Virus record (IMG/VR): IMGVR_UViG_3300032287_002590
Span: 1-43,048 of that record
DNA length: 43,048 bases
Origin: a virus
Reading direction: 5' to 3' (one strand)
In this document: one piece after another, positions 19,230 to 43,048 of the stretch
Position numbering within the stretch: the stretch's first letter is position 1
Layout: every line of letters starts with the position of its first letter
Translations under genes and position numbers: made by a program
Notes under the pieces: generated by a model
Databases searched by the model: none
What the model was told of the DNA's origin: nothing
What the model saw: the letters and a program-made list of their open reading frames with translations, nothing else

Positions 19230-20375
19230 TTACTCGGTAAAGACCGGGAATGAACCAACAAAACCTTTGTTGCTGTGCAGGAACCTCATGCCCTGCTGAG
19301 GGCGCTCGGGTCGGTAACCCTGGCGATGCGAATAAGGAGCGCAACCCGGCAAGCTGCCATTTGAGGTAGCTCTACCAAAGTTTAATGTATGAAAATGACC
19401 ATGAAAAGTGTTATCTGCCGCTATGCTTTGATCTAAGTTTTTGCAGTGTTTATCGACGTTCCATAAAGGCCCTGCAGCTCCACCGTTATATTTGACCGAA
19501 TCACCGTGAAAGAAGCGCAGCCGTTTGTTGTAAACATTCATGTAAAGGCAGTCTGAATCGGCGATCTGCCACACCAGGCGCGGTTGATCTCTGTAATGCC
19601 TCCTAAGGTTGTGATACATCAAATGGGCAAAGCTATTTTCAGTTGCGTTACTCTGCTGCTTCTTGCTGCATCTGTCGTGATTGCCCACGTTACAGGGCAC
19701 CATAATTTGCTCTAGATCGGAATGCGCCAGTAGGTAATCAAAGCCTCGGACTAACGCCAACTGACAACGGACAATCTGCTGCGTAGTGGTGAGGGTTTGA
19801 TTTTGCACGGCATCTTCATGCAGCTCTCCCTCGATCATGTCGCCGCCGAGCCATACGACCCCCTCACGGATGGTCATGGTGTTGCGCTGACCGTTGATAA
19901 TTTTTAGGGCATTGCGGAACACTGCATCAAGCCGATCATCAAAAATGTCAGGTGAAAATTCGTTCAGTTCGTTTACAATTTGCGGTTTTACTACCATCCC
20001 GCAGTGTATATCGCTAACCATTAGGATTGGTGCCGCTTCCTCCTTCCCTGGATCTTCGGGCGACTCAATTGTGCCTTGATCAAAAATATCTCTGATCTCT
20101 AGGGCTGTGTTTAAGGCATCCTGTACCGTTTCTAATTTGGCTAACGCACGCTCTGCCGAGGCCCTGGCGTCCCTTGCCTCCGCCTTAAGCCTGCGAGCGT
20201 CAAGCTGCAGAGCTAATAAATCTTCAGACGTATCCGATCGCTTGCCATTAGGGCACATACCAGGCAGGCACATCGCCCTACGTTTACCGGATCTTTCATG
20301 CCATTCAATTGCACTTTCAACAAGCCATTCACGACAAGCACTATTCCTTCGGCATTGGAAAGTGCGCTCGCTCAT
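19230..20375 (-). CDS. Calcineurin-like metallophosphoesterase with N-terminal zinc-finger-like segment
   Basis: 381 residues. Five metallophosphoesterase motifs in order: D122-I-H124, G-G-D179, G-N232-H233-D234, H290 (FFHGDS) and H325-G-H327-F-H329. The N terminus has four Cys (8, 14, 36, 41), a possible zinc finger, then a coiled coil (about 55-95). The family hydrolyses phosphomonoesters or phosphodiesters; in phages it may process DNA ends or nucleotides, but the substrate is not known. The ATGA overlap with the peptidase gene places it in the same operon. Confidence 0.8.
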   Translation of the reverse strand: MSERTFQCRRNSACREWLVESAIEWHERSGKRRAMCLPGMCPNGKRSDTSEDLLALQLDARRLKAEARDARASAERALAKLETVQDALNTALEIRDIFDQGTIESPEDPGKEEAAPILMVSDIHCGMVVKPQIVNELNEFSPDIFDDRLDAVFRNALKIINGQRNTMTIREGVVWLGGDMIEGELHEDAVQNQTLTTTQQIVRCQLALVRGFDYLLAHSDLEQIMVPCNVGNHDRCSKKQQSNATENSFAHLMYHNLRRHYRDQPRLVWQIADSDCLYMNVYNKRLRFFHGDSVKYNGGAAGPLWNVDKHCKNLDQSIAADNTFHGHFHTLNFGRATSNGSLPGCAPYSHRQGYRPERPQQGMRFLHSNKGFVGSFPVFTE

Positions 20376-21091
20376 GGCTTTCTACAGGTGAGCATCCACC
20401 CGCCAGTTCCATTAACCATCCAGCGCGGATTCCAATTTAATGTACTATATTTAAGATTGGCTCCGTTGTGATTAGCGGTGTAGCCACCATTTACAAGATC
20501 AGCCTCGCCGTTGGGATCGTTCATTAGCCAGAATCCAGGGCCATGGCCAATTGCTACGCTCCAGTGCCCACCGCCTTGTGGCGCCCGAGCAGTGCCCTTG
20601 TGCAGCCAGCCAACAGCAACGGGTCGGCCCGCGTTCAGCTCTTGCTTCAGTAGCTCTGGGGTGCCATCGGTGCGGAAATTTGCAACCAATCCCAGTGACC
20701 TTAGCGCCCGCAGTTGCGCCTGAGCATCGGTGGAATCCCCGAATTTGGATCGAATCTGGTTGTAGGCATCGTCGGATGACACCTTGCCCCAAAAAGCAGC
20801 GATCATTGCAGAAGAACTTGAGAAGCATTCCCTATATCCCATTCCGCTTAAATTATCACCTTGACTAAACCACGGCACGTTTATTTTGACAGCCGTTTGC
20901 TGCAATGAATCAGACCGTATTCCGTCTTGACTCCATGTAATAAACCAGGGCCGATCACGACGCATTGCAACCGCATAGCCATTAACCCGTAGGTCTTCTT
21001 CTAGCTCTACAACAGCAGCGGCTTGACGAGGGAGCCCTGGCCGCCAAAACCTGAACAGTTGCTGCAGGGTGATGGGCGACGAATTGGACAC
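20372..21091 (-). CDS. C39-like papain-fold cysteine peptidase, endolysin candidate
   Basis: 239 residues from a GTG. A C39-type peptidase pattern: Cys C89 in YRECFSSSSAMIAAFWG, His in GGHWSVAIGH (H176) and Asp/Asn (N191-D192) in WLMNDPNGEAD. The N-terminal 60 residues are variable and may bind the cell wall. It sits directly after two small membrane proteins, the usual holin-endolysin layout. Such a fold can cleave peptide crosslinks in peptidoglycan, so it is the best endolysin candidate in this window (inference). Confidence 0.65.
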   Translation of the reverse strand: MSNSSPITLQQLFRFWRPGLPRQAAAVVELEEDLRVNGYAVAMRRDRPWFITWSQDGIRSDSLQQTAVKINVPWFSQGDNLSGMGYRECFSSSSAMIAAFWGKVSSDDAYNQIRSKFGDSTDAQAQLRALRSLGLVANFRTDGTPELLKQELNAGRPVAVGWLHKGTARAPQGGGHWSVAIGHGPGFWLMNDPNGEADLVNGGYTANHNGANLKYSTLNWNPRWMVNGTGGWMLTCRKP

Positions 21092-22666: not shown

Positions 22667-24739
22667 CTAGGAATCGGGGAATGCTCCAATCGGTGGGGTG
22701 AAGCTTGCCGTATAGCGAGCAACGCCTTTTGTAATGCGTAGTTCATCCATCCACCCTTGAAAGAACTCGCCATCACGGCTTCCTCTGGTTGCAATATGTG
22801 CCCGCCCGAGGCTTATGTTATTGCTATTTGTGACCGTATTAACTAAAACGCCATCTATAAAAACCCGAAGACTGGTGCCCTGACGGCTTGCTGCAACGTG
22901 ATGCCAAGTATCAACAGCAATTGTACCTGCCGTTTGCCCTGAGTTGTACCAAGTCAACTGACCACTCAGAATGTAAAGCGTATCAATATCTCCTGATCCA
23001 AGCCCGATCAATCCTCTATAGTTGTTAACAGATACGGTAGGGCGAATAAACGCCTCTATTGTAAAATCACCCGTGCCCATTTGCAAGGGTACTAACGAAC
23101 TGGCGGTTAACAGGTAGTCATTAGAGCCGTCAAAGTAAGCAGATGAACCACCAAACTTGCTTTGAGCGGTACTAATTTGTGCGCCGTTATAGCCTGTTAC
23201 GGTAATGGCGTTGCTACTGCTATCAATAAATGTTGTGCTGCCGTTTGTGCCGCTAAAGTGCAGCAACAGTGAAACCGACGAGAAATTAGGATCAGGGGGT
23301 AGCCTATCTGGAAACGGTTCAATGGGTGGGGTGAAGTCGGATACATAGCGGGCAACTGCCTTGGAAACGCGCAAATCGTCTATGTAGCCATTGAATACAT
23401 GATAAGGATATGGGCCGCCGCCAAAGAAAAATCTCCCAATTACGTCAATTCGGAAAGTGCCTGTCCAACTGGTATTTGTGCCTCCGATTTGAAAGCCATT
23501 GACAAACATCCGAGTAGAGCTGCCAGCACGGCAAATGGCAACATGCTGCCAAGTATTTGGTGTGATGTTTGCAGCAGTTGGGGAAAAAACCTGAGTGCCG
23601 TTGAGGTAGAAACTTAGACGCCCAGGCAGTCCCCCTTCATTTAATCGAAAAATTTGCGTATTATCATCCGACGTACTTGATGCTGCTATCATATCGTCGG
23701 AACTTAAAGGATAAAGCCAAGCCTCAATAGTAAAGTCCCCAGTCATTTGCAGGCTTGGCTGGGGCGTATATGTAATATATGTATTTCCATTAGCATTATT
23801 AAATAATCCAGACGATCCACCAAACTTACTTTGAGAGGTATTGATTCTTGCACCTACAACGCCAGAAGCCGCCAAAGCATAGCTGCTAGAGTCAACAAAA
23901 GTTGTTGAGTCATTTGCGCCTTGAAAATGCAATAGCAATGAAACCAACGAATAGTAAATATCAGAAGAAGAAGAATTTGTAGAAGAAGGTAGATTATCTG
24001 GGAAGGGTTCACTGGGCGGGCTGAAGTTTGTGGTGTAGCGTGCGGTGCCAACTGTTATCCTAATGTCATCTAAGTAACCAGATATATAGCCGACATTTAA
24101 TTGAGTTGAGCCGCCAATCTGCATTGTAGATTCGCTAAAATTGTTTGTTACTGTGCTGTTGCCGCCAACCTGCGTTCCATTAAAAAATCTGCGCATTACG
24201 GCTGATCCGTCTCGCGTTAAGGCAAAGTGCGTCCAGGTGTTATCCTGAATGGACGTAACAGGCGAATTCTCAAAAATCCAAGTATTTGCAGTGCTAACCC
24301 GACCGTCAGCAAAAATATCAATTCCATTTGTACCAACATTTCCACTTCTTGAATTAAACATTACGCTAGTAGACGGATTTGAGCTGTTGCGATAAAACCA
24401 AAACTCCACAGTAAAAGCGCCCGAACCAAGTCCACCGCTGATACTTGTACTAAGATAGTCTCCATTGCCATCAAATACTGCACTTGCGCCACCGAACTTG
24501 GACTGAGTTGTGCTAATTTTACAATCGCCATTTGGCGTAACCGAACGAGCTGTATTGCTTGAATCAATAAAAGTCGTTGAATTATTAAGGCCGTTGCAGT
24601 GCAGCAACAGTGCAACCGACAAAAAGGAAGCATCACCCGGTAAAATAAGACTTTCAAGCGCCACTTCAGGCAATCGAAAAGGCACTAAGCGACCATCAAG
24701 CGGACGGCTGTAAATTCGTATTACACCGCTGACAGACAT
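22667..24739 (-). CDS. Tail protein with three LamG/concanavalin A-like domains
   Basis: 690 residues. Three tandem copies (about 40-240, 260-465, 480-690) of a LamG jelly-roll, each with SVxLLLHxxGxNxSTTFxDSS, then QSKFGG, a central W-rich segment and a GYxDDxRIT-x-AR motif at the end. These lectin-like folds bind glycans, so the protein probably recognises host surface sugars. A fourth related LamG protein is encoded at 41942-42655. The repeats look like internal duplications. Confidence 0.8.
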   Translation of the reverse strand: MSVSGVIRIYSRPLDGRLVPFRLPEVALESLILPGDASFLSVALLLHCNGLNNSTTFIDSSNTARSVTPNGDCKISTTQSKFGGASAVFDGNGDYLSTSISGGLGSGAFTVEFWFYRNSSNPSTSVMFNSRSGNVGTNGIDIFADGRVSTANTWIFENSPVTSIQDNTWTHFALTRDGSAVMRRFFNGTQVGGNSTVTNNFSESTMQIGGSTQLNVGYISGYLDDIRITVGTARYTTNFSPPSEPFPDNLPSSTNSSSSDIYYSLVSLLLHFQGANDSTTFVDSSSYALAASGVVGARINTSQSKFGGSSGLFNNANGNTYITYTPQPSLQMTGDFTIEAWLYPLSSDDMIAASSTSDDNTQIFRLNEGGLPGRLSFYLNGTQVFSPTAANITPNTWQHVAICRAGSSTRMFVNGFQIGGTNTSWTGTFRIDVIGRFFFGGGPYPYHVFNGYIDDLRVSKAVARYVSDFTPPIEPFPDRLPPDPNFSSVSLLLHFSGTNGSTTFIDSSSNAITVTGYNGAQISTAQSKFGGSSAYFDGSNDYLLTASSLVPLQMGTGDFTIEAFIRPTVSVNNYRGLIGLGSGDIDTLYILSGQLTWYNSGQTAGTIAVDTWHHVAASRQGTSLRVFIDGVLVNTVTNSNNISLGRAHIATRGSRDGEFFQGWMDELRITKGVARYTASFTPPIGAFPDS

Positions 24740-25126: not shown

Positions 25127-26464
25127 TCAAGGTCTGCCCCATATCCACAAGCCTCGACCGCCGCTGCCGCTACCGCCGCCGCCGCCGCCGCCGCCGGACG
25201 CGTTCAACGTTGAACCGGAAATCAATAGATTAGTCCCTGTGTTTAAGTATTCAAGCCGTTGAGTGCCGCTATTCCAAAACAGAATCTTGCTAGTGCTTGT
25301 TGGTACGCCAGCAATCTGCCCGCTTGCCGTTGATAAAACATTTTCCGCATTTGAAGAAACCGTAAGTGTTGAACCCTTGGATATTGTTGCTCCAAGAGTT
25401 GTTGCAATTACATCTTGATTTTCGTCATCAATGATAAGTTTTGCTCTGAACTGAAACGACCGTCCTGACGCAACACACGATACAAGAGGTGTCCATGGGG
25501 TCCAGGTTGAAGCCGACAACAGGGGCTCGGTAGAGCTGCGAAACTCAATAGATACCTCGCCATTACCAGCTCCAGATCCGTCTTCATCAAAATACAGCCA
25601 ATCATCAATCAGTCCAGATCGAGAATCCCATTGTGAAACTGAGACGCGGGAAAACGATCGAACAAGACGGCGCAACTCAAGGCTGCTGACCACTTGTGCG
25701 TCATAGCCAGATGAAAACGTATAATATGCAATAGTGCCATCTTCCCCGTAAGAATCAATTAAAGTTGTAACAGAATCAAAATTTCCATCAGTTGCCAGGG
25801 TATCAAAACTGTCAGCTTCCGTAGAAATAGCGCCGTAAGTATCAATAGGCTGAGTTAAGCTATTTATCAATCCAAGATCATCGAAATATGTTGAATTAAA
25901 CCGAAGGCCGCCTAGGTTGCTATCGTAAATACAGTTAAGTTTTTGACCAGCAAATCCGCCAATAGACTCGTCTATTGTTAAAAGCGTTGACCCGACCAGT
26001 GGTGAAGTAAAGGCCAGTGAGGTTGTCACACCGGACAACAGGCCATAGTCATTTACGAATCGAATTAAGTAAGCGCCAGTCAAGGCAGGAATCAATACTT
26101 GCCCCGAGGATGCCGCTGGATAGTTTGGGCTTAGGGGGTTAGCGGAGCCCCATTGCCCACTAGAATCAGGAGTATGTCTAATTGCAACGCTTAAGCCTGA
26201 CGCTAACGGCACCGACCACGTTAAAAGGGCTAGCGAAGAATTTAGGGCAACAATTGAAGCGTCTTCAACGCTTTCAATGGTTTCGTTTTCACCGTTTATG
26301 GCTCCACTATTGCTACGATTAACCGTTTGGCTTGAATTTATTGGAGCAGAGCGGTTGCCAAAAGCATCAATCGCAATTACTTGAACTTCGTAATTTCCAG
26401 TTGAAACGGATGAAACCGTTAAAGACGGATTATCAGTGCGTAATGTTATCCAGTTAGATGCCAT
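25127..26464 (-). CDS. Second part of the gpJ-like tail tip, starting inside a fibronectin type III domain
   Basis: 445 residues. The first 40 residues (NWITLRTDNPSL, then VSTGNYEVQVIAIDAFGNRSAP) complete a fibronectin type III domain whose first half ends the preceding gene at 26464. The ATG overlaps that stop (TAATG). Later the chain continues through beta-rich segments to a glycine run of about eight, coded by a (CCG)8 tract, and ends GLWIWGRP. It probably forms the distal part of the tail tip. Whether it is a separate polypeptide or the product of a frameshift is uncertain. Confidence 0.65.
   Translation of the reverse strand: MASNWITLRTDNPSLTVSSVSTGNYEVQVIAIDAFGNRSAPINSSQTVNRSNSGAINGENETIESVEDASIVALNSSLALLTWSVPLASGLSVAIRHTPDSSGQWGSANPLSPNYPAASSGQVLIPALTGAYLIRFVNDYGLLSGVTTSLAFTSPLVGSTLLTIDESIGGFAGQKLNCIYDSNLGGLRFNSTYFDDLGLINSLTQPIDTYGAISTEADSFDTLATDGNFDSVTTLIDSYGEDGTIAYYTFSSGYDAQVVSSLELRRLVRSFSRVSVSQWDSRSGLIDDWLYFDEDGSGAGNGEVSIEFRSSTEPLLSASTWTPWTPLVSCVASGRSFQFRAKLIIDDENQDVIATTLGATISKGSTLTVSSNAENVLSTASGQIAGVPTSTSKILFWNSGTQRLEYLNTGTNLLISGSTLNASGGGGGGGGSGSGGRGLWIWGRP
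25173..25196. repeat. (CCG)8 trinucleotide tract
   Basis: Eight perfect CCG units (GGC on the coding strand) giving a polyglycine run near the end of the tail tip protein. Such tracts are prone to slippage and can vary linker length. The flanks (CCGCTGCCGCTACCG) look like diverged copies. Confidence 0.7.
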
Positions 26465-29094
26465 TAAACTGCCCTATAGGAAACTTCATATTCAACTGCT
26501 CCAGGTACAGATGCCCAGCTCAGGTGAAGATCGGTTTGGTTGGTACTGGGGTTAATTGTAGCGGCTGCGGTTGCGCTGACAGGGGATGGCGGCGGGTCGG
26601 TTTTGATGGGCGCGTATTGCGTTTCATCCAATGGTATTTTACGTTCAATGTAGGCATATTTACTTTGATTATACCGAATAGCGTTGACAGTATATTTAGA
26701 ACCATCTTTTTCGTCAATCGTAATTACGCGCCAGGTTGTTGCCACGGCTAGATTGTTGTTAATGTGCCATGTTCCACCGACAAGGGGCGCCGCACTGAAT
26801 GCGGCTGATGGCGAAACTACCGCTGCGTTAATAGATGCAATTGATCGTGATTCTACAGTGCCGTTTACAAGCATTGCAGCAATAGTGGCATCGGGACCGG
26901 ATTGCAGGTCGGTTTGCGAAGTGTTATCAACAGTCAGTGAGCTTGTTGTGCCCGCGACAATTTTTCCTCCGCGTCGAAGCCCTGTCTTCATATCATCCAT
27001 CACGGTGATTAACTGGCCGGGGCGGATCTGCGCTCCGGCGGCAAGGGTGCCTTCAAAAGAAAGAATTTCTGACTCTTGCTGTTCCGTGTAAAGCAGCCAC
27101 TCGCCAAGCCTGCGTGCTTGGCCTCTTGACGTACAGGCAAACGCATCAACATCAATAACAATGGCGCCATAATTATCTATTCCATCGGTATCTTCTATTG
27201 ATTCGTAAAGATAATCCTGAAGATCGTTAGAAAAATACTTTACAACAGCAACGGTGTGCCTGCTGCGCAGGCTGGCGCCAATGTAGCGGAACTGCCCATC
27301 TTTGACATCGCTGTTATGAAAAGTCATAATAGGATTTGATGGCCTATCTTGACTTATGTTCAAAAGGTTGTTGCCCCAATACGGCATAGCCCTAAAAACA
27401 CTACACAGTTGGTTTATCAGATTAAATCCTTCCGATTGGTTTTGGATATTAACTGAGCAGGAAAAGCGCGGCTCGGCGCCGCCCTTTCCGTCGGGGACAA
27501 GCTCAGCGCAGTATTGCGAAGCAGCATAAAAACTCCATTTGTCAAGTGAACTTGGCTGGCAGTGCTGGCCAAATCCATACCGACAGTTGGTGACAAGATC
27601 CCATAGGCACCAGGCCGGGTCAGTTGTCCATTGCGCAGCGCCAAAGTTACCATCCCAGATCCCCGAATAAATCAAACGGCCATTCGTGAGATCAACAGTT
27701 GCATTGTTGGGAATAAATACTTTTATTCCGCGTCGTTTCGTTGAAATTGTTGGCCAAGAATTAAAATACTTAGCATCAATTTGAACGCCAAGTAGCGCAG
27801 AATACGGATAGGAGGCTTTTGCATAGACAATTTCGGTATAGTCGCTCCAGGTCATCGTGTCTTGCACCTTGTCGTCCGTAGAGTCATTGGTGACCCTTAA
27901 CACACGAACGTCAACGGGAAATGGCCCTGAAATGGGAATTTCATGTGAACGCTGGTAGGCGTCACCCGTGCGTCCTTTGACGCTTGTATCAACAACGGTA
28001 GAAAACGATCCGCCCGAGTTGGCAATTTGAATTTGATATTTTACTTCTGTTGCAATAATATCACCTTCCTGTGCATCACCTGGAATGCCTTTTTTTGATA
28101 AATAAGCAGATTTTGCGGAAACGTAATTTCTTTTATTTTTTCGTCTTAGGCCAAAAAAGGATGGATCGGGTTCCTGAAAGTATTGCTGAAGCGCTTGCCA
28201 GGTTAGCGTAACCTTTACAGCATTTATAGTTGTATCGGAAATGCTGCGAGTAATTGCAGTTTCTTTTGTGACTGTCAAGTTAACTGATTTTTGAGACTCG
28301 GATTGATTAAAGCCACCGATGTAACTTTGGTTAGCCGTTCCATTTCTATAGCTTACTACAACACCCTTAAAGTTGTAATCAGAATCTTGCGGATTGCTAG
28401 GGTCAGCCGTTTGCTTAAGAATTTGCGTTTGATTTAAGTAAATATCTTTTAATGCAGCCTTTTCGTAAGCTACTGAGTTTTTGTCATAATCTTTGCCAGA
28501 TGGGAAACCCTCTTGCTCGCCTTCGCCCAGTAAGCATAAGATGCGTGCGTATTGAGTTGAATTTAAGTTATCGTCGGCTGTCCTTGGAGCACGTTGGCCT
28601 GCAGGTTTTTTTTGTTTTTTACCTCCTGAGCCAATGATGTTTTCGTAGCCAAGGCCTGCGTTATGGACACGAAAGCTATTGGCAAAATAAGTATGATGAT
28701 GATCAACAGTTAAGTTGTAAACTGGATAATAACCAAACAATTCTGAACTAAGGAGAGGCCGCAAATGCCCCAGGTCATCAACCAGGCAATCATCTCGATC
28801 CAATGCTCCAATTTCAACAAATGCGCCATATTGGTTTAGCACCCAATGATTACGAGTTGCAAGCAGCTCTCTACCGCCCCACATCTTGTAGCGCCATACT
28901 TCCTCTCGTTCGTGAAAGTGAACTGCATCTACCTTGCATTGATAAATAGAGCCTTGATCATCAAAGGCAAAGATGATTGTCTTGGGCTTTATATCAGAAA
29001 TTTTGATGGCGCCATTCGGGGCACTGATCAATGTATCTCCATGAAAACATCCGCCACCGCCACCAATGCCAGACCCGCGAATTGCGCCAACCAT
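26464..29094 (-). CDS. gpJ-like tail tip/host specificity protein with N-terminal Hint (intein-like) domain
   Basis: 876 residues from the ATG at 29094; a TTG five codons upstream is less likely. A Hint domain occupies about C16-N145: block A CFHGDTLIS, TRNH (T80, H83) and a final FRVHN (H144, N145). The next residue is A146, not C/S/T, so N145-side cleavage rather than normal splicing is expected, as in bacterial intein-like (BIL) domains. Then a canonical gpJ begins (LGEGEQEGF near 190), with a long phage-tail-3 domain and fibronectin-like segments at the end. It forms the tail tip that recognises the host. It stops at 26464 inside a fibronectin domain. Confidence 0.85.
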   Translation of the reverse strand: MVGAIRGSGIGGGGGCFHGDTLISAPNGAIKISDIKPKTIIFAFDDQGSIYQCKVDAVHFHEREEVWRYKMWGGRELLATRNHWVLNQYGAFVEIGALDRDDCLVDDLGHLRPLLSSELFGYYPVYNLTVDHHHTYFANSFRVHNAGLGYENIIGSGGKKQKKPAGQRAPRTADDNLNSTQYARILCLLGEGEQEGFPSGKDYDKNSVAYEKAALKDIYLNQTQILKQTADPSNPQDSDYNFKGVVVSYRNGTANQSYIGGFNQSESQKSVNLTVTKETAITRSISDTTINAVKVTLTWQALQQYFQEPDPSFFGLRRKNKRNYVSAKSAYLSKKGIPGDAQEGDIIATEVKYQIQIANSGGSFSTVVDTSVKGRTGDAYQRSHEIPISGPFPVDVRVLRVTNDSTDDKVQDTMTWSDYTEIVYAKASYPYSALLGVQIDAKYFNSWPTISTKRRGIKVFIPNNATVDLTNGRLIYSGIWDGNFGAAQWTTDPAWCLWDLVTNCRYGFGQHCQPSSLDKWSFYAASQYCAELVPDGKGGAEPRFSCSVNIQNQSEGFNLINQLCSVFRAMPYWGNNLLNISQDRPSNPIMTFHNSDVKDGQFRYIGASLRSRHTVAVVKYFSNDLQDYLYESIEDTDGIDNYGAIVIDVDAFACTSRGQARRLGEWLLYTEQQESEILSFEGTLAAGAQIRPGQLITVMDDMKTGLRRGGKIVAGTTSSLTVDNTSQTDLQSGPDATIAAMLVNGTVESRSIASINAAVVSPSAAFSAAPLVGGTWHINNNLAVATTWRVITIDEKDGSKYTVNAIRYNQSKYAYIERKIPLDETQYAPIKTDPPPSPVSATAAATINPSTNQTDLHLSWASVPGAVEYEVSYRAV

Positions 29095-29098
29095 ATAC

Positions 29099-29665
29099 CT
29101 AGGCCTCAACAGTGGTAATGCCAGCAGAAATGATAATGGCGCCGGTTACGATTTCGCCGTAAACAACATTCACTGGAACAGATTGGCGACTGGTATTTTG
29201 CACGCCACTGATTGAAAACGACTCAACTTGCCGTGGATCTTTTTCCTTTGCCTGAGTCGCTACCTTTGGGGCTAGCAATTGTGCAACGCCACCAAGAACC
29301 AGGGACGCTCCGATGCCGAACAGCACTGGGCCGAGTGCAACACCAAACAACGCAACACCAGGAATAAAAAAGCTGGCTACGACAAGAAATGCTCCGGCAA
29401 TTATTCTCCCTACAGCTCCAGAACCGCTAATTACTGGAATTAAATGAATTTCCTCGTCACAGCCGACCGGGAAATGAATTTCGTCTTCGCCGATATTGTG
29501 GGCACCGCAATAGACGTAATAATCATGGCTAGCGATAAATGCTTCGCACTCAGGGAAATTTGCGACAAGAAATCTGACCGATTCCGCAACGGAGCTTACT
29601 TCAACCTTAAAAGTATCTTGGTCAAGTTTTTCGGCCAACGGGCCGTAGATTCTGACGGTTCTCAT
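29099..29665 (-). CDS. Tail assembly protein I (gpI-like)
   Basis: 188 residues. A ubiquitin-like start (MRTVRIYGPLAEKLDQDTFKV), then GCDEEIHLIPVISGSG, a hydrophobic glycine-rich stretch (about 84-130) and a C-terminal beta segment (PVNVVYGEIVTGAIIISAG), all as in lambda gpI. It assists tail tip assembly. Order K-I-J is kept, with an ATGA overlap to the gpK-like gene. Confidence 0.8.
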   Translation of the reverse strand: MRTVRIYGPLAEKLDQDTFKVEVSSVAESVRFLVANFPECEAFIASHDYYVYCGAHNIGEDEIHFPVGCDEEIHLIPVISGSGAVGRIIAGAFLVVASFFIPGVALFGVALGPVLFGIGASLVLGGVAQLLAPKVATQAKEKDPRQVESFSISGVQNTSRQSVPVNVVYGEIVTGAIIISAGITTVEA

Positions 29666-30396
29666 TTGGTCAGCCTTAGCTTCTCACAGTCTAAGTGACG
29701 TATAATTTTACCAGTTGATTTTTGCAAGCCCTCTCCGTAAAGGTCAAGACTGGAAAGGCGCCATTGAATGTGATGCAGTAAACGATAATCCTTGTCCAAA
29801 ACTCCGATGTGATTCAACCCGGTTGAGCAAATCGCCATTAGCACGGCATCACCCGGCTGTGCGTCCTTACGAGGTACTTCAAAAAATCCAGCGTCAGGAA
29901 AAAAAGATTCAAACAACGGTGACCGCTGAAATTCATCGGGATCAATGGGGCGATCGAAGTCGCGCAATGCAACGCCATGCTCCTCGTACCAATCGCGGAC
30001 TAGGGACCAGCAATCATGTATGCCCCAGACCCATTGTCGGCCAATCAACGGAGCCTTGTATCCGCTTGGCCTGAACGTGTGCCAGCGGCCCTCAGGGGGG
30101 TCCAAGTGAGGTGACACGATATGCCAGGGTAGCTGCCATTTTTCGCAGCTTGCAAGGTCTGCTGGAGATGGCCGAGGGAAGTCGTTGGGATGACTGTGGA
30201 CAATGGCGGCAATCGTGCCAGCAGTGGTGGCCGCAAGGTAGTCGGCGGGTTCTATAACAAAATCGCAATCATCAACGGCAATGTTTCTGCAAGGCCAATA
30301 ATGATCTTTGCCGCGAATGACAACAACAAGGCCGCACGACTCACGCGGGAGGCATTCAATAGCGTGTTTCAATGCTGCTTGCTTAAAGGTTTCCAT
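29662..30396 (-). CDS. Tail assembly protein K (gpK-like), JAB protease and NlpC/P60 domains
   Basis: 244 residues with two peptidase domains. JAB/MPN: E14, H67-S-H69-P with S77 and D80 (HSHPNDFPRPSPAD), the metalloprotease JAMM motif. NlpC/P60: C129 in IHDCWSLVRDW, H196 in GLNHIGVL and a further His near 208. gpK proteins are tail tip components that may open peptidoglycan during DNA entry. ATGA overlap with gpI. Confidence 0.85.
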   Translation of the reverse strand: METFKQAALKHAIECLPRESCGLVVVIRGKDHYWPCRNIAVDDCDFVIEPADYLAATTAGTIAAIVHSHPNDFPRPSPADLASCEKWQLPWHIVSPHLDPPEGRWHTFRPSGYKAPLIGRQWVWGIHDCWSLVRDWYEEHGVALRDFDRPIDPDEFQRSPLFESFFPDAGFFEVPRKDAQPGDAVLMAICSTGLNHIGVLDKDYRLLHHIQWRLSSLDLYGEGLQKSTGKIIRHLDCEKLRLTK

Positions 30397-31017: not shown

Positions 31018-31764
31018 TTAGAAATTGTAATTACCAATACCAGGAAAGCCGCCATACGGCAATTGGGCGGTTTGACCAAAACGAGCTTTACAGCTAGTTA
31101 AGCGATGTCCACATTTATCTTCAGAAGCTGAATACACACGGTTATCATTTTCATCAAAAAAATCAGAACCTCTATATCCGCAGCCATCACCCTTGTAAAT
31201 CCATCCACAACGCTTAAGGCATTGGCGCTTTGGCGCTCTGATCCCAGTTAGATCATATCGAGCAACAAGTTCAAATTCAACTAAATCTCTACATTCCATT
31301 GATTTTCGATCTACATAGTAAACCTCATCGGGCATGGTACTGAGCGGATCAGGGGTTCCATACGGGTTGACATTGCCAGTGAAATTAGAATGATCCAAAA
31401 AACGCGCCAACGTTCTGATACGCGTAAACTTGGCTCCAATTAGATCATTGCCAGGATTGTACGCATTGACTTCAGCTAGTATTGACGTAATAGCGCCTTC
31501 CGTGTTGGCAACACGCACGGTCGGCCTAGGCAGAGTTCCTTTGCCTGAATACGAAAAGCCTTCAGCTTCAATTGGAAAAGGCCAGTATTTGTAAGTATTC
31601 CATTGAATTGCGCTTAAACCGTAAGTTGCATTAACGGTGCTAGTAAATCTATAAACTTCATTTGAACCGTGCAACCTAGCGCTAGTTTCAATTTCATATA
31701 GCTCAATAACGGAACTAGGAGTAAGAGAGGCTAGTTCTTGGCGAAGTTCAGTAGTTAAAGCCAT
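31018..31764 (-). CDS. Minor tail protein L (gpL-like)
   Basis: 248 residues. The C-terminal third carries Cys C182, C186, C195, C218 and C225 (CLKRCG, GDGCGYRG, DKCGHRLTSCKARFG). C186, C195, C218 and C225 have spacings of 9, 23 and 7, similar to the [4Fe-4S] ligands reported for lambda gpL. It caps the tail tip. Follows the gpM-like proteins in order. Confidence 0.85.
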   Translation of the reverse strand: MALTTELRQELASLTPSSVIELYEIETSARLHGSNEVYRFTSTVNATYGLSAIQWNTYKYWPFPIEAEGFSYSGKGTLPRPTVRVANTEGAITSILAEVNAYNPGNDLIGAKFTRIRTLARFLDHSNFTGNVNPYGTPDPLSTMPDEVYYVDRKSMECRDLVEFELVARYDLTGIRAPKRQCLKRCGWIYKGDGCGYRGSDFFDENDNRVYSASEDKCGHRLTSCKARFGQTAQLPYGGFPGIGNYNF

Positions 31765-41372: not shown

Positions 41373-41942
41373 TCATTCCACCACAGCCCCCAGTGCCTCC
41401 ACGAAATCGGCTGGCAGATCAAATTGCTCGGCCAGCGTCTGCACGGCGGCCAGCAGCTCAGGCGAAATCAGGTTGAGCGCGAGGGCCATGCTCCAGGACG
41501 ACAGGAACACCCTTGCATCGCCGTCAGCCGCCTTGCCCAGACCAACGCCAAGACCCAGGCCCAGGGCTGGCGCCTGCTGCAGGGCTGCACCGAGAAGTGT
41601 ATTGATAGCCGGGCTGCTTTGGACTGCAGCACCGAACTCAACCCAGCGGGGCTGGAGTGTTGCCGGAGGCAGCTCCACCAGCTCCCAGGCTTGCTGCCAG
41701 GCGCCATCGACTAGAACTGGGGCAATCTCAACGGCTTGGAACAAGGCGGGATCGTGCTCAGGTTGCGACGTGGCGCTGTAGGCAACCAGTAGGATCGGCG
41801 GCTCCAGGGCGGCATAACTGGCCAGCTCGGCGCTGTGCGGGTCGTTGCTGACGGATAGGCGTGGTTCGTCCGCTCGCAACTGCGCTGCTGTGTAGGGCCA
41901 TTGGGGGCCGGTGAGCCGTAGGCGGAGGATATGGTTTGCCAT
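41373..41942 (-). CDS. Hypothetical protein, tail fibre-assembly-like pattern
   Basis: 189 residues. The pattern VLVDGAWQQAWELVELPPATLQPRWVEF followed by a helical C terminus resembles the layout of phage tail fibre assembly or chaperone proteins, but I cannot confirm a family. The ATG overlaps the LamG stop by one base (TGATG). Confidence 0.5.
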   Translation of the reverse strand: MANHILRLRLTGPQWPYTAAQLRADEPRLSVSNDPHSAELASYAALEPPILLVAYSATSQPEHDPALFQAVEIAPVLVDGAWQQAWELVELPPATLQPRWVEFGAAVQSSPAINTLLGAALQQAPALGLGLGVGLGKAADGDARVFLSSWSMALALNLISPELLAAVQTLAEQFDLPADFVEALGAVVE

Positions 41943-42655
41943 CAGAAGTCAGGGAATGGCGCGGTCGGTACGGTGAAGTCGGCGGTATAGCGGGCCGCCT
42001 TAGTGATTCTCAATTCATCAATATACCCGTTGTAATTTAATTGACTTGGACTATTACCATCTGCGCCGAGAATAGGACGCGAAGCGCCTACTGAATAATT
42101 GCTGCTGTCTGTAATCGTGCCACCTACCTGCGTGCCATTCAGGAAGCCCCGCAAGCTGCCGCCCGATCGGCAAACTGCAATAAAGTTCCAGGCGTTAAGA
42201 GAAAGCGTGCCATTTATATAGGTGTTATCATTGGCAACGATTGCCAGAGAGGCGTTCGACGTGTACACAATAAGCCGATTTTGTATACTAGCAAAGTTGA
42301 GCGCTCTTGAGTCGAATATCACTTTAATCCCAGTTAATGACAACGGGTAGATCCAGAACTCAACTGAAAAATCCCCAGCCCCGAATGCAAAACTATTTGA
42401 GCCGTCCAGCGTTAAATAATCTCCAGACCCATCAAACGCAATACTGCTGCCACCAAACTTGCTCTGCGCCGTGCTGATCTGCGCACCGCCAACTGTCGTC
42501 ACCGTCTTAGGTGATGGGCTGCTATCGGTGATAGCGGTGGAGCCGTCGGCTCCATTGCCATGAAGAAGCAGGGAGACGTTGGCAAAGTAAGGGTCGGAAT
42601 CAGCGCCACCCAATCCCCCAACAAACCCCAGATCCCGCAGGGTCAGCGTGGTCAT
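41942..42655 (-). CDS. Single LamG-domain protein
   Basis: 237 residues from the ATG at 42655, which overlaps the previous stop (ATGA); a longer start at 42682 is not needed. Contains one LamG jelly-roll with NVSLLLHGNGADGST, QSKFGGSS, a central WIYPL segment and ELRITKAARYT at the end, closely matching each repeat of the protein at 22667-24739. Placed before the tail tube gene, so it could be a head or neck decoration lectin (inference). Confidence 0.75.
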   Translation of the reverse strand: MTTLTLRDLGFVGGLGGADSDPYFANVSLLLHGNGADGSTAITDSSPSPKTVTTVGGAQISTAQSKFGGSSIAFDGSGDYLTLDGSNSFAFGAGDFSVEFWIYPLSLTGIKVIFDSRALNFASIQNRLIVYTSNASLAIVANDNTYINGTLSLNAWNFIAVCRSGGSLRGFLNGTQVGGTITDSSNYSVGASRPILGADGNSPSQLNYNGYIDELRITKAARYTADFTVPTAPFPDF

Positions 42656-43048
42656 GCCTGCACCCCGTAGGCGGCCACGCAATCGCTATCAGCCGTGCCG
42701 AAATAGGTCAGGCTGAGCACCGCAGTCTTGCTGGCAGCAATCGTGGACGGCTTGGTTCCCAGGAACACCCAGCCAGCGGGGAACGTCAGGGCGCGGGCCG
42801 TGCCGTCGCAGATCAGTCGGATCGTCACCTGGCGGCCACTGGCGCGGTTGCTGGTGGTGAGTGTCAGCGCACCTGTCAGGCTGATCGTGCGATACCCGCC
42901 GGCCAGCGCGGCTAGGTCGAGATCGACTGTGGCGGCATAGGTGATCGTGGCGGCGGTGAACGTAACTGGCAACTTCGCGGCGTCGTTGCCGTCGAGCTTC
43001 TGAATTGCCTGCAGAATCGTGTCTGTTGCGGAAACAGCTCCAGCGCCG
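42652..43048 (-). CDS. Tail fibre-like structural protein, 5' partial
   Basis: Open to the right edge of the window; the visible 131 residues are the C terminus. The frame reads through position 43048 and includes AVSATDTILQAIQKLDGND, a segment typical of phage tail fibre-like proteins, then a beta-rich domain (TVDLDLAALAGGYRTISL and RQVTIRLICDG). A TTG at 42972 is an internal codon, not the start. Confidence 0.7.
   Translation of the reverse strand, partial: GAGAVSATDTILQAIQKLDGNDAAKLPVTFTAATITYAATVDLDLAALAGGYRTISLTGALTLTTSNRASGRQVTIRLICDGTARALTFPAGWVFLGTKPSTIAASKTAVLSLTYFGTADSDCVAAYGVQA

Follow-up and report, generated by a model that had tools for sequence, protein, structure and literature searches.

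The window analysed here, a 43,048-nt stretch of DNA from an uncultivated virus (IMG/VR record IMGVR_UViG_3300032287_002590), carries tail genes in the order L-K-I-J, and the body of its gpJ is a clear homologue of lambda gpJ (Table 1). The frame called gpJ stops partway through an FN3-like region, and gpJ homology carries on in the next open reading frame (25127-26464); the NCBIfam lambda_TipJ score is 351.6 bits against a full-length cut-off of 1950. The ATG at 29094 is supported by the starts of relatives (L005, MVAIRGAGGTG; L043, MAEIRGAGGGG). Lambda gpI is ubiquitin-like in nature (PMC1779556), and the gpL/gpI/gpJ junction is a hypervariable site for extra domains (PMC13243795). The phage group of the window is variable at this junction.

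Table 1 Features of the gpJ locus in the window.
Feature	Positions	Strand	Basis or remark
gpJ-like tail tip protein ORF, 876 aa	26464..29094	-	ATG at 29094, stop at 26464; NCBIfam lambda_TipJ 7.5e-105, phrog_31 central tail fiber J 2e-182, Pfam FNIII-A_GpJ 6.5e-30
N-flank ("N-extein") MVGAIRGSGIGGGGG, aa 1-15	29050..29094	-	like native N terminus of Hint-less gpJ
Hint / BIL-type autoprocessing domain (predicted activity), C16-N145, 130 aa, no endonuclease insert	28660..29049	-	profile, PDB sequence, fold, family
Cys16 = Cys1 of Hint, predicted N-S acyl shift nucleophile	29047..29049	-	invariant in 44-row alignment A2
Block B, T80-R81-N82-H83	28846..28857	-	T, N, H invariant (A2); TxNHW in 66/66 distinct domains
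Block F Asn127, position of conserved Asp of canonical inteins	28714..28716	-	Asn in 66/66; aligns with gp41-1 Asp and Asn of BIL domain 2lwy
Block G His144-Asn145, predicted C-terminal cut by Asn cyclisation	28660..28665	-	invariant in family
+1 residue Ala146, first residue of predicted mature gpJ (AGLG)	28657..28659	-	Ala 82, Gly 7 of 89 members
IIGSGG, aa 153-158, repeat of the native gpJ start motif on the C-terminal side of the Hint	28621..28638	-	C-flank motif in 89/89; equals start of Hint-less gpJ
gpI-like protein just upstream of gpJ; N domain ubiquitin-like, tail PVISGSG	29099..29665	-	phrog_32 tail assembly protein 1.2e-43
gpK-like, JAB and NlpC/P60 peptidase domains	29662..30396	-	Pfam Prok-JAB 3.1e-11, NLPC_P60 1.3e-9
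gpL-like hub protein	31018..31764	-	phrog_18 1.6e-73

Hint domains are known to drive protein self-processing in polymorphic toxins and hedgehog proteins as well as in inteins and bacterial BIL domains. A sequence-only reading of the window had recognised Hint motifs between C16 and N145 of gpJ, and all of them are present: C16, TRNH (T80-H83) and VHN (V143-H144-N145), followed by Ala146. The domain itself proved real. When residues 1-166 were scanned, the NCBIfam model intein_Nterm scored 28.3 bits (cut-off 24.5) with a match starting exactly at C16, and intein_Cterm scored 23.9 bits (cut-off 15.6) with a match ending exactly at N145. Pfam PT-HINT (PF07591) reached 26.8 bits on the window member against a curated cut-off of 27.7, and it matched 17 of 17 scanned family members at E<=0.01 (best member, E=1.2e-11); a Pfam Hint_2 search of the window's own viral record gave no match, detection coming from the intein_Nterm, intein_Cterm and PT-HINT models. 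Searched as a single sequence, the window Hint matched inteins and BIL domains in the PDB (best E=2e-6), and a 17-row profile (A1) returned the BIL domain 2lwy as its top match (E=1.8e-13), with 54.1 bits versus 43.9 bits for the best intein, although some inteins outscore the BIL domain when the window sequence is used without a profile. The AlphaFold2 model of the Hint had a mean pLDDT of at least 95 in every 10-residue block from 21 to 140 and matched PDB structures of Hint fold (2lwy, rmsd 1.9 A); among 65 structural matches at E<=0.001, the best 50 were inteins, BIL or hedgehog domains. The predicted HINT fold, N-terminal Cys, block-B TxxH and C-terminal HN are those of the Hint superfamily, and the +1 residue without a nucleophile, together with a family profile nearer to BIL domains than to inteins, is as in A-type BILs. 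As judged from sequence and model, the N terminus of gpJ is a Hint domain of the BIL kind.

Many metagenomes, as well as bacterial genome assemblies, yielded 89 loci of identical architecture, each with an open frame into gpJ and the Hint (66 distinct domains) always at the same insertion site. Copies of gpJ-Hint occur in Oxalobacter (L084) and in a betaproteobacterium (L083). The domains are 130-131 aa long and contain no homing endonuclease; overall identity with the window member in alignment A2 is 43-56%. The motifs TxNH, HT[FY] and terminal HN occur in 66/66 distinct domains and none of the 89 copies is degenerate, in pattern-based searches that favour well-conserved domains; Cys1 is kept in all 44 rows of alignment A2, in which its invariance was judged, the other motifs being judged in the 66 distinct domains. 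Asn replaces the block-F Asp of inteins in every distinct domain. The +1 residue is Ala in 82 and Gly in 7 of the 89, never Cys, Ser or Thr, and this family-wide fixation bears out the earlier view that Ala at +1 argues against normal splicing. One locus (L034) carries a tandem module whose two copies are 75% identical and both retain full catalytic motifs. Median dN/dS over 87 pairs was 0.04 for the Hint versus 0.08 for the gpJ body, a rough comparison, since dS (median 1.5) approaches saturation and Hint similarity guided the choice of pairs; such ratios indicate that the Hint is under strong purifying selection. Divergence of the Hint correlates with that of the body (Mantel r 0.74; 0/999 permutations as high).

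The module is patchy on the gpJ tree, with at least 8-10 presence/absence changes. Only 4 of 76 gpJ proteins retrieved by the body alone carry it, and because the other 72 live without it, any function of the Hint is dispensable in general. It is apparently absent from the gpJ of about 1,500 gpJ-bearing phage records; single-sequence tblastn with the Hint and one relative against 50,697 phage records gave distant inteins and unnamed ORFs but no clear gpJ-Hint, and no isolated phage with the module was found by tblastn in the phage collection searched.

Hint-less gpJ proteins start with M..IxG[AS]GGGG or shorter. In the window, a motif of the IxG[AS]GG type lies on both sides of the Hint, before C16 and just past the AGLG that follows N145, and the flanks AGLG and IxGAGGGG are conserved in the family. 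Mature gpJ had been proposed to start at AGLG, as typical gpJ sequences would. This is partly borne out: IIGSGG equals the native start, but none of the 72 Hint-less gpJ proteins starts with AGLG, the typical start being the IxG[AS]GG motif about 7 residues beyond it. Judged by these motifs, C-terminal cleavage would restore a near-native gpJ N terminus, and the N-flank itself resembles a native-type start. The Hint occupies a disordered N-terminal arm that is not conserved, rather than a conserved active site; since an arm of this kind forces no retention by itself, an active excision domain retained there would be one that is used.

We consider it likely (probability about 0.7) that the gpJ Hint is a working BIL-type (A-type BIL or PT-HINT-like) autoprocessing domain, predicted to remove itself from the tail tip protein. 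The conserved motifs, Ala or Gly at +1, Asn in block F and a dN/dS of about 0.04 make a cleavage-prone BIL-type domain the best reading, rather than a splicing intein or a relic. Its catalytic residues are intact and some 90 further uncharted phages have the module in the same place, so self-cutting of the tail tip during maturation is probable. The Hint would fold while gpJ is still being made, flanked by two flexible, Gly-rich arms. Asn145, helped by His144, would cyclise, and the cut between N145 and A146 would free a gpJ starting with AGLG and then the native-type IxGSGG; Asn in place of the block-F Asp may leave this cyclisation unrestrained. Replacing that Asp leads to more C-terminal cleavage in the Mtu RecA, Npu DnaE and gp41-1 inteins (PMC12245125, PMC9033041), and BIL domains without a +1 nucleophile give mainly cleaved products (PMC7664689). 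C-terminal cleavage as in BIL domains was what the sequence-only reading had suggested, and the BIL type of the Hint agrees with it; taken alone, however, it leaves the invariant Cys16 and block-B TxNH unexplained. As C-terminal cleavage does not need these residues, N-terminal thioester chemistry may take place as well: Cys16 and TxNH would form a thioester with Gly15, water or another nucleophile would resolve it, and the 15-residue Gly-rich peptide would leave. With Ala or Gly at +1, the two arms would be ligated only as a minor side reaction. The purpose might conceivably be that of a removable N-terminal pro-domain, holding off gpJ trimerisation, or its packing against gpL/gpI, until the proper moment.

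Were the Hint instead to splice, it would be excised and the arms ligated to MVGAIRGSGIGGGGG-AGLGYENIIGSGG..., giving a gpJ with a longer Gly-rich arm and an intein-like element fixed in gpJ. Cys1, TxNH and HN are all retained, as splicing requires, the N-flank is conserved and native-like, and a single constant insertion site with patchy presence is also seen with inteins; ligation by a BIL domain without a nucleophilic side chain is reported in a title (Aranko 2013) cited in PMC7664689. Splicing is nevertheless unlikely in view of Ala or Gly at +1 in 89/89, Asn for the block-F Asp in 66/66, the missing homing endonuclease and a site in a non-conserved linker. Class 1 inteins require Cys, Ser or Thr at +1, absent in the family; class 3 inteins have no Cys1, a block-F Cys and Thr before HN, whereas Cys1, a block-F Asn and VHN are present here. 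Cys103 was rejected as an extra, class-3-like nucleophile, as a second Hint subfamily has Ala at that position. A mobile intein with a homing endonuclease was rejected on domain length; homing endonucleases are missing from some inteins too. Less probable still, the Hint could be kept as a decoration that serves tail tip structure or binding, its motifs persisting for folding only: a junction hypervariable for added domains (PMC13243795), in a phage group variable there, would suit this, but folding alone does not call for invariant catalytic residues such as Cys1 and the final Asn, and no degenerate copy occurs among the 89.

By analogy with BIL2 of Tetrahymena BUBL1, the Gly15-Cys16 thioester could also be attacked by a tail-protein lysine to give an isopeptide bond. 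The gpJ Hint would then be an ATP-independent conjugation device, passing the thioester at ..GAGGGG-Cys1 to a lysine of gpI, gpL or another gpJ so that tip subunits are covalently joined or tagged, with the gpK JAB as matching isopeptidase. BIL2, the second-ranked structural match, makes isopeptide bonds (PMC8616854), the gpK JAB and gpI Ubl (PMC1779556) adjoin gpJ, and gpI Ubl tails (PVxAGAGxxG in 110/161 loci) resemble the gpJ arm IxGAGGGG. This glycine-rich likeness may be chance, however, no Ubl domain lies ahead of the Hint in gpJ, and Hint-less phages have the same gpK and gpI types; we regard conjugation as very improbable. The idea that the Hint takes the place of the JAB peptidase was rejected, as JAB-type gpK is present in phages with and without the Hint. 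In Stenotrophomonas phage CUB19, ORFs that lie between I and J were considered as Hint relics but are HNH genes. An assembly chimera or wrong start call, with the Hint no part of gpJ, might be suspected of an uncultivated contig, but is refuted by the 89 relatives of diverse origin and is scarcely credible.

The A-type BILs, such as BIL4 of Clostridium thermocellum (PDB 2lwy), are close counterparts, with which the gpJ Hint shares its fold, Cys1, TxxH, block-F VYN..HT[YF], terminal HN, a non-nucleophilic +1 residue and the lack of an endonuclease. BIL domains are described from hypervariable, non-conserved bacterial proteins (PMC7765530), whereas the gpJ Hint has a fixed place at the N-terminal end of a phage structural protein that is itself conserved, and its flanks are conserved as well. 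In polymorphic toxins, PT-HINT likewise immediately precedes the portion that is to be set free (PMC3482391); that portion is a C-terminal toxin there, whereas here it is predicted to be the tail tip protein gpJ. Ubiquitin-like and JAB proteins encoded nearby recall BUBL BIL2 (Tetrahymena thermophila, PDB 6y75/6tmm), but the gpJ polypeptide has no ubiquitin-like domain and isopeptide chemistry is a feature of BIL2. Phage inteins (terminase, helicase and nrd genes) share fold, motifs and patchy presence at one insertion site; the gpJ Hint differs in lacking a +1 Cys/Ser/Thr, the block-F Asp and a homing endonuclease, and in its non-conserved host site. Lambda gpJ (TipJ) shares the homologous body and gene order, and differs in lacking the Hint.

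Siphophage tail assembly has been studied for decades in lambda. Sections of PMC10721106 and PMC11101478 held no mention of N-terminal processing of lambda gpJ, titles and abstract openings in the open-access literature held no description of a Hint or intein in gpJ or a tail tip protein, and self-cutting of a gpJ-type protein is, as far as could be found, apparently undescribed. With Ala or Gly at +1, the 66 distinct mini-Hint domains form a large natural family that appears tuned for cleavage, and they share a gene cassette with a ubiquitin-like protein and a JAB peptidase. If the proposed self-removal is true, a conserved Hint on the central tail tip protein would add a maturation step new to siphophage tail assembly, and phage tails would gain a built-in, protease-free timer.

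The Hint domain that the sequence-only reading had placed at the start of the tail tip protein gpJ was confirmed as real by profile scores and fold comparison. Within residues 1-166 of the window gpJ, intein_Nterm scored 28.3 bits (cut-off 24.5) and began exactly at C16, and intein_Cterm scored 23.9 bits (cut-off 15.6) and ended exactly at N145. Searched against the PDB, the single sequence matched inteins and the BIL domain 2lwy, and a profile of 17 relatives ranked 2lwy first (E=1.8e-13) with inteins behind. AlphaFold2 modeled the Hint domain confidently with both flanking arms disordered (pLDDT <50 at 1-12 and 148-172), and Foldseek matched this model to the Ssp DnaB mini-intein, BIL2 of Tetrahymena BUBL1, 2lwy and gp41-1.

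The host ORF matched NCBIfam lambda_TipJ (7.5e-105), phrog_31 "central tail fiber J" (2e-182) and FNIII-A_GpJ (6.5e-30), with lambda gpJ family homology from about residue 342 onward. Its tail genes follow the lambda order L-K-I-J plus one additional ORF, which had no Pfam or PHROG match and contains DNSGSM, recalling a VWA metal-binding motif. The gpJ ORF terminates partway through an FN3-like region, and homology to gpJ resumes in the next ORF, whose ATG shares one base with the gpJ stop; the phrog_31 match is split over both (positions 387-909, then 914-1093), reflecting either a split gene or a contig sequence error. LamG_3 (concanavalin A-like) proteins near both ends of the tail genes are possible sugar-binding tail decorations.

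Tail genes and neighboring features of the window
Feature	Position	Strand	Remark
gpL	31018-31764	minus	5' of gpJ, same direction
Extra ORF, 203 aa	30404-31015	minus	between gpL and gpK
gpK, JAB + NlpC/P60 domains	29662-30396	minus	5' of gpJ, same direction
gpI	29099-29665	minus	5' of gpJ, same direction
gpJ ORF, 876 aa	ATG 29094 to stop 26464	minus	ORF translation
gpJ break	25127-26470	minus	
690-aa protein, three LamG_3 domains	22667-24739	minus	3' of gpJ
One LamG_3 domain	41942-42682	minus	near opposite end of tail genes
Papain-like (C70/C39) peptidase domain, weak match	20372-21091	minus	3' of tail genes

An IMG/VR scan with the Hint query returned 107 relatives, 80 of which were kept (49-57% identity); in the readable ones the domain is N-terminal, or nearly so, within a gpJ-type ORF. 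Four additional relatives came from 84,980 prokaryote genomes, including records labelled Oxalobacter sp. and a Betaproteobacterium, where the domain likewise sits on gpJ, and three more viral loci fall in that subfamily. Profile detection in the fetched ORFs gave 89 domains in total (66 distinct) of 130-131 aa without an endonuclease. All 89 carry the full motif set, none being degraded, with TxNHW, HT[FY] and HN in 66/66 distinct domains. Because a regular-expression count stretched six domains to an upstream Cys, the invariance of Cys1 was taken from a 44-row alignment. One gpJ (locus L034:7530-8390) bears two complete N-terminal modules in tandem, 75% identical and both with full motifs; AGLG and an IHGA motif come after each of them.

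A scan by gpJ body alone, which carries no bias toward Hint carriers, gave 80 loci, of which 4 had the domain, 72 lacked it and 4 were cut off. Hint-less proteins typically start M..IxG[AS]GGGG(K)GGGG..TPTEA, and Hint-bearing ones read M..IxG[AS]GGGG - C..Hint..HN - AGLGxx - IxG[AS]GGGG(K)GGGG..TPTEA, so that the native N-terminal motif flanks the module on both sides. AGLG (GGHR in the second subfamily) co-occurs with Hint and starts no Hint-less gpJ seen, contrary to the proposal that it marks the usual gpJ start. The typical start motif lies 7 residues downstream, however, so C-terminal cleavage would still yield a near-native N terminus, and the proposed maturation is partly supported.

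Class-1 splicing requires Cys, Ser or Thr at the +1 position, which is Ala in 82 and Gly in 7 of the 89 domains. BIL domains without a +1 nucleophile give mostly cleaved products (PMC7664689), and the block-F Asp of canonical inteins restrains C-terminal cleavage: when it is mutated, Mtu RecA, Npu DnaE and gp41-1 cleave faster (PMC12245125, PMC9033041). The equivalent N127, aligned by profile with the gp41-1 Asp and an Asn of 2lwy, is Asn in 66/66 distinct domains. Together with the +1 Ala or Gly, this suggests a domain tuned for cutting at N145|A146, which would leave gpJ with the near-native start. Since C-terminal cleavage alone does not explain the invariant Cys1 and TxNH, N-terminal thioester chemistry is probably used in addition; it would release the 15-aa arm, arm transfer being less likely.

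Such transfer chemistry has a precedent in BUBL1 BIL2, which makes isopeptide bonds (PMC8616854), and lambda has a ubiquitin-like domain on gpI and a JAB peptidase on gpK (PMC1779556). In 110/161 loci the ubiquitin-like portion of gpI terminates with PVxAGAGxxG (PVISGSG in the window), resembling the gpJ arm IxGAGGGG. A conjugation device acting with gpI and gpK is nevertheless speculative and very improbable, because the same kinds of gpK and gpI also occur in Hint-less phages.

Hint and body identities are correlated (Mantel r 0.74; 0/999 permutations as high). Over 87 pairs the median dN/dS was 0.04 in the Hint domain against 0.08 in the gpJ body, a rough comparison given dS near saturation and pairs picked by Hint similarity. 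On the gpJ body tree (FastTree; the window gpJ sits on a long branch) presence switches at least 8-10 times, indicating repeated gain or loss. The gpJ body matched 1,522 phage records by tblastn, and two Hint sequences found no clear gpJ-Hint among 50,697 phage records; no description of the module on phage tail tip proteins was found in the open-access literature searched.

The gpL/gpI/gpJ junction is a hotspot for added domains (PMC13243795). Stenotrophomonas phage CUB19 has an HNH endonuclease gene, broken into two ORFs, inserted exactly between gpI and gpJ (L102:1945-2493), so the junction accepts other elements as well. In lambda, the N-terminal region of gpJ combined with gpL and gpI is the counterpart of the single-chain T5 hub (PMC10721106). 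Taken with this correspondence, the focus of domain addition at the junction makes a removable pro-domain delaying hub assembly a plausible role. Overall, gpJ-Hint is a BIL-type autoprocessing module that is probably active and is conserved family-wide on phage tail tip proteins.
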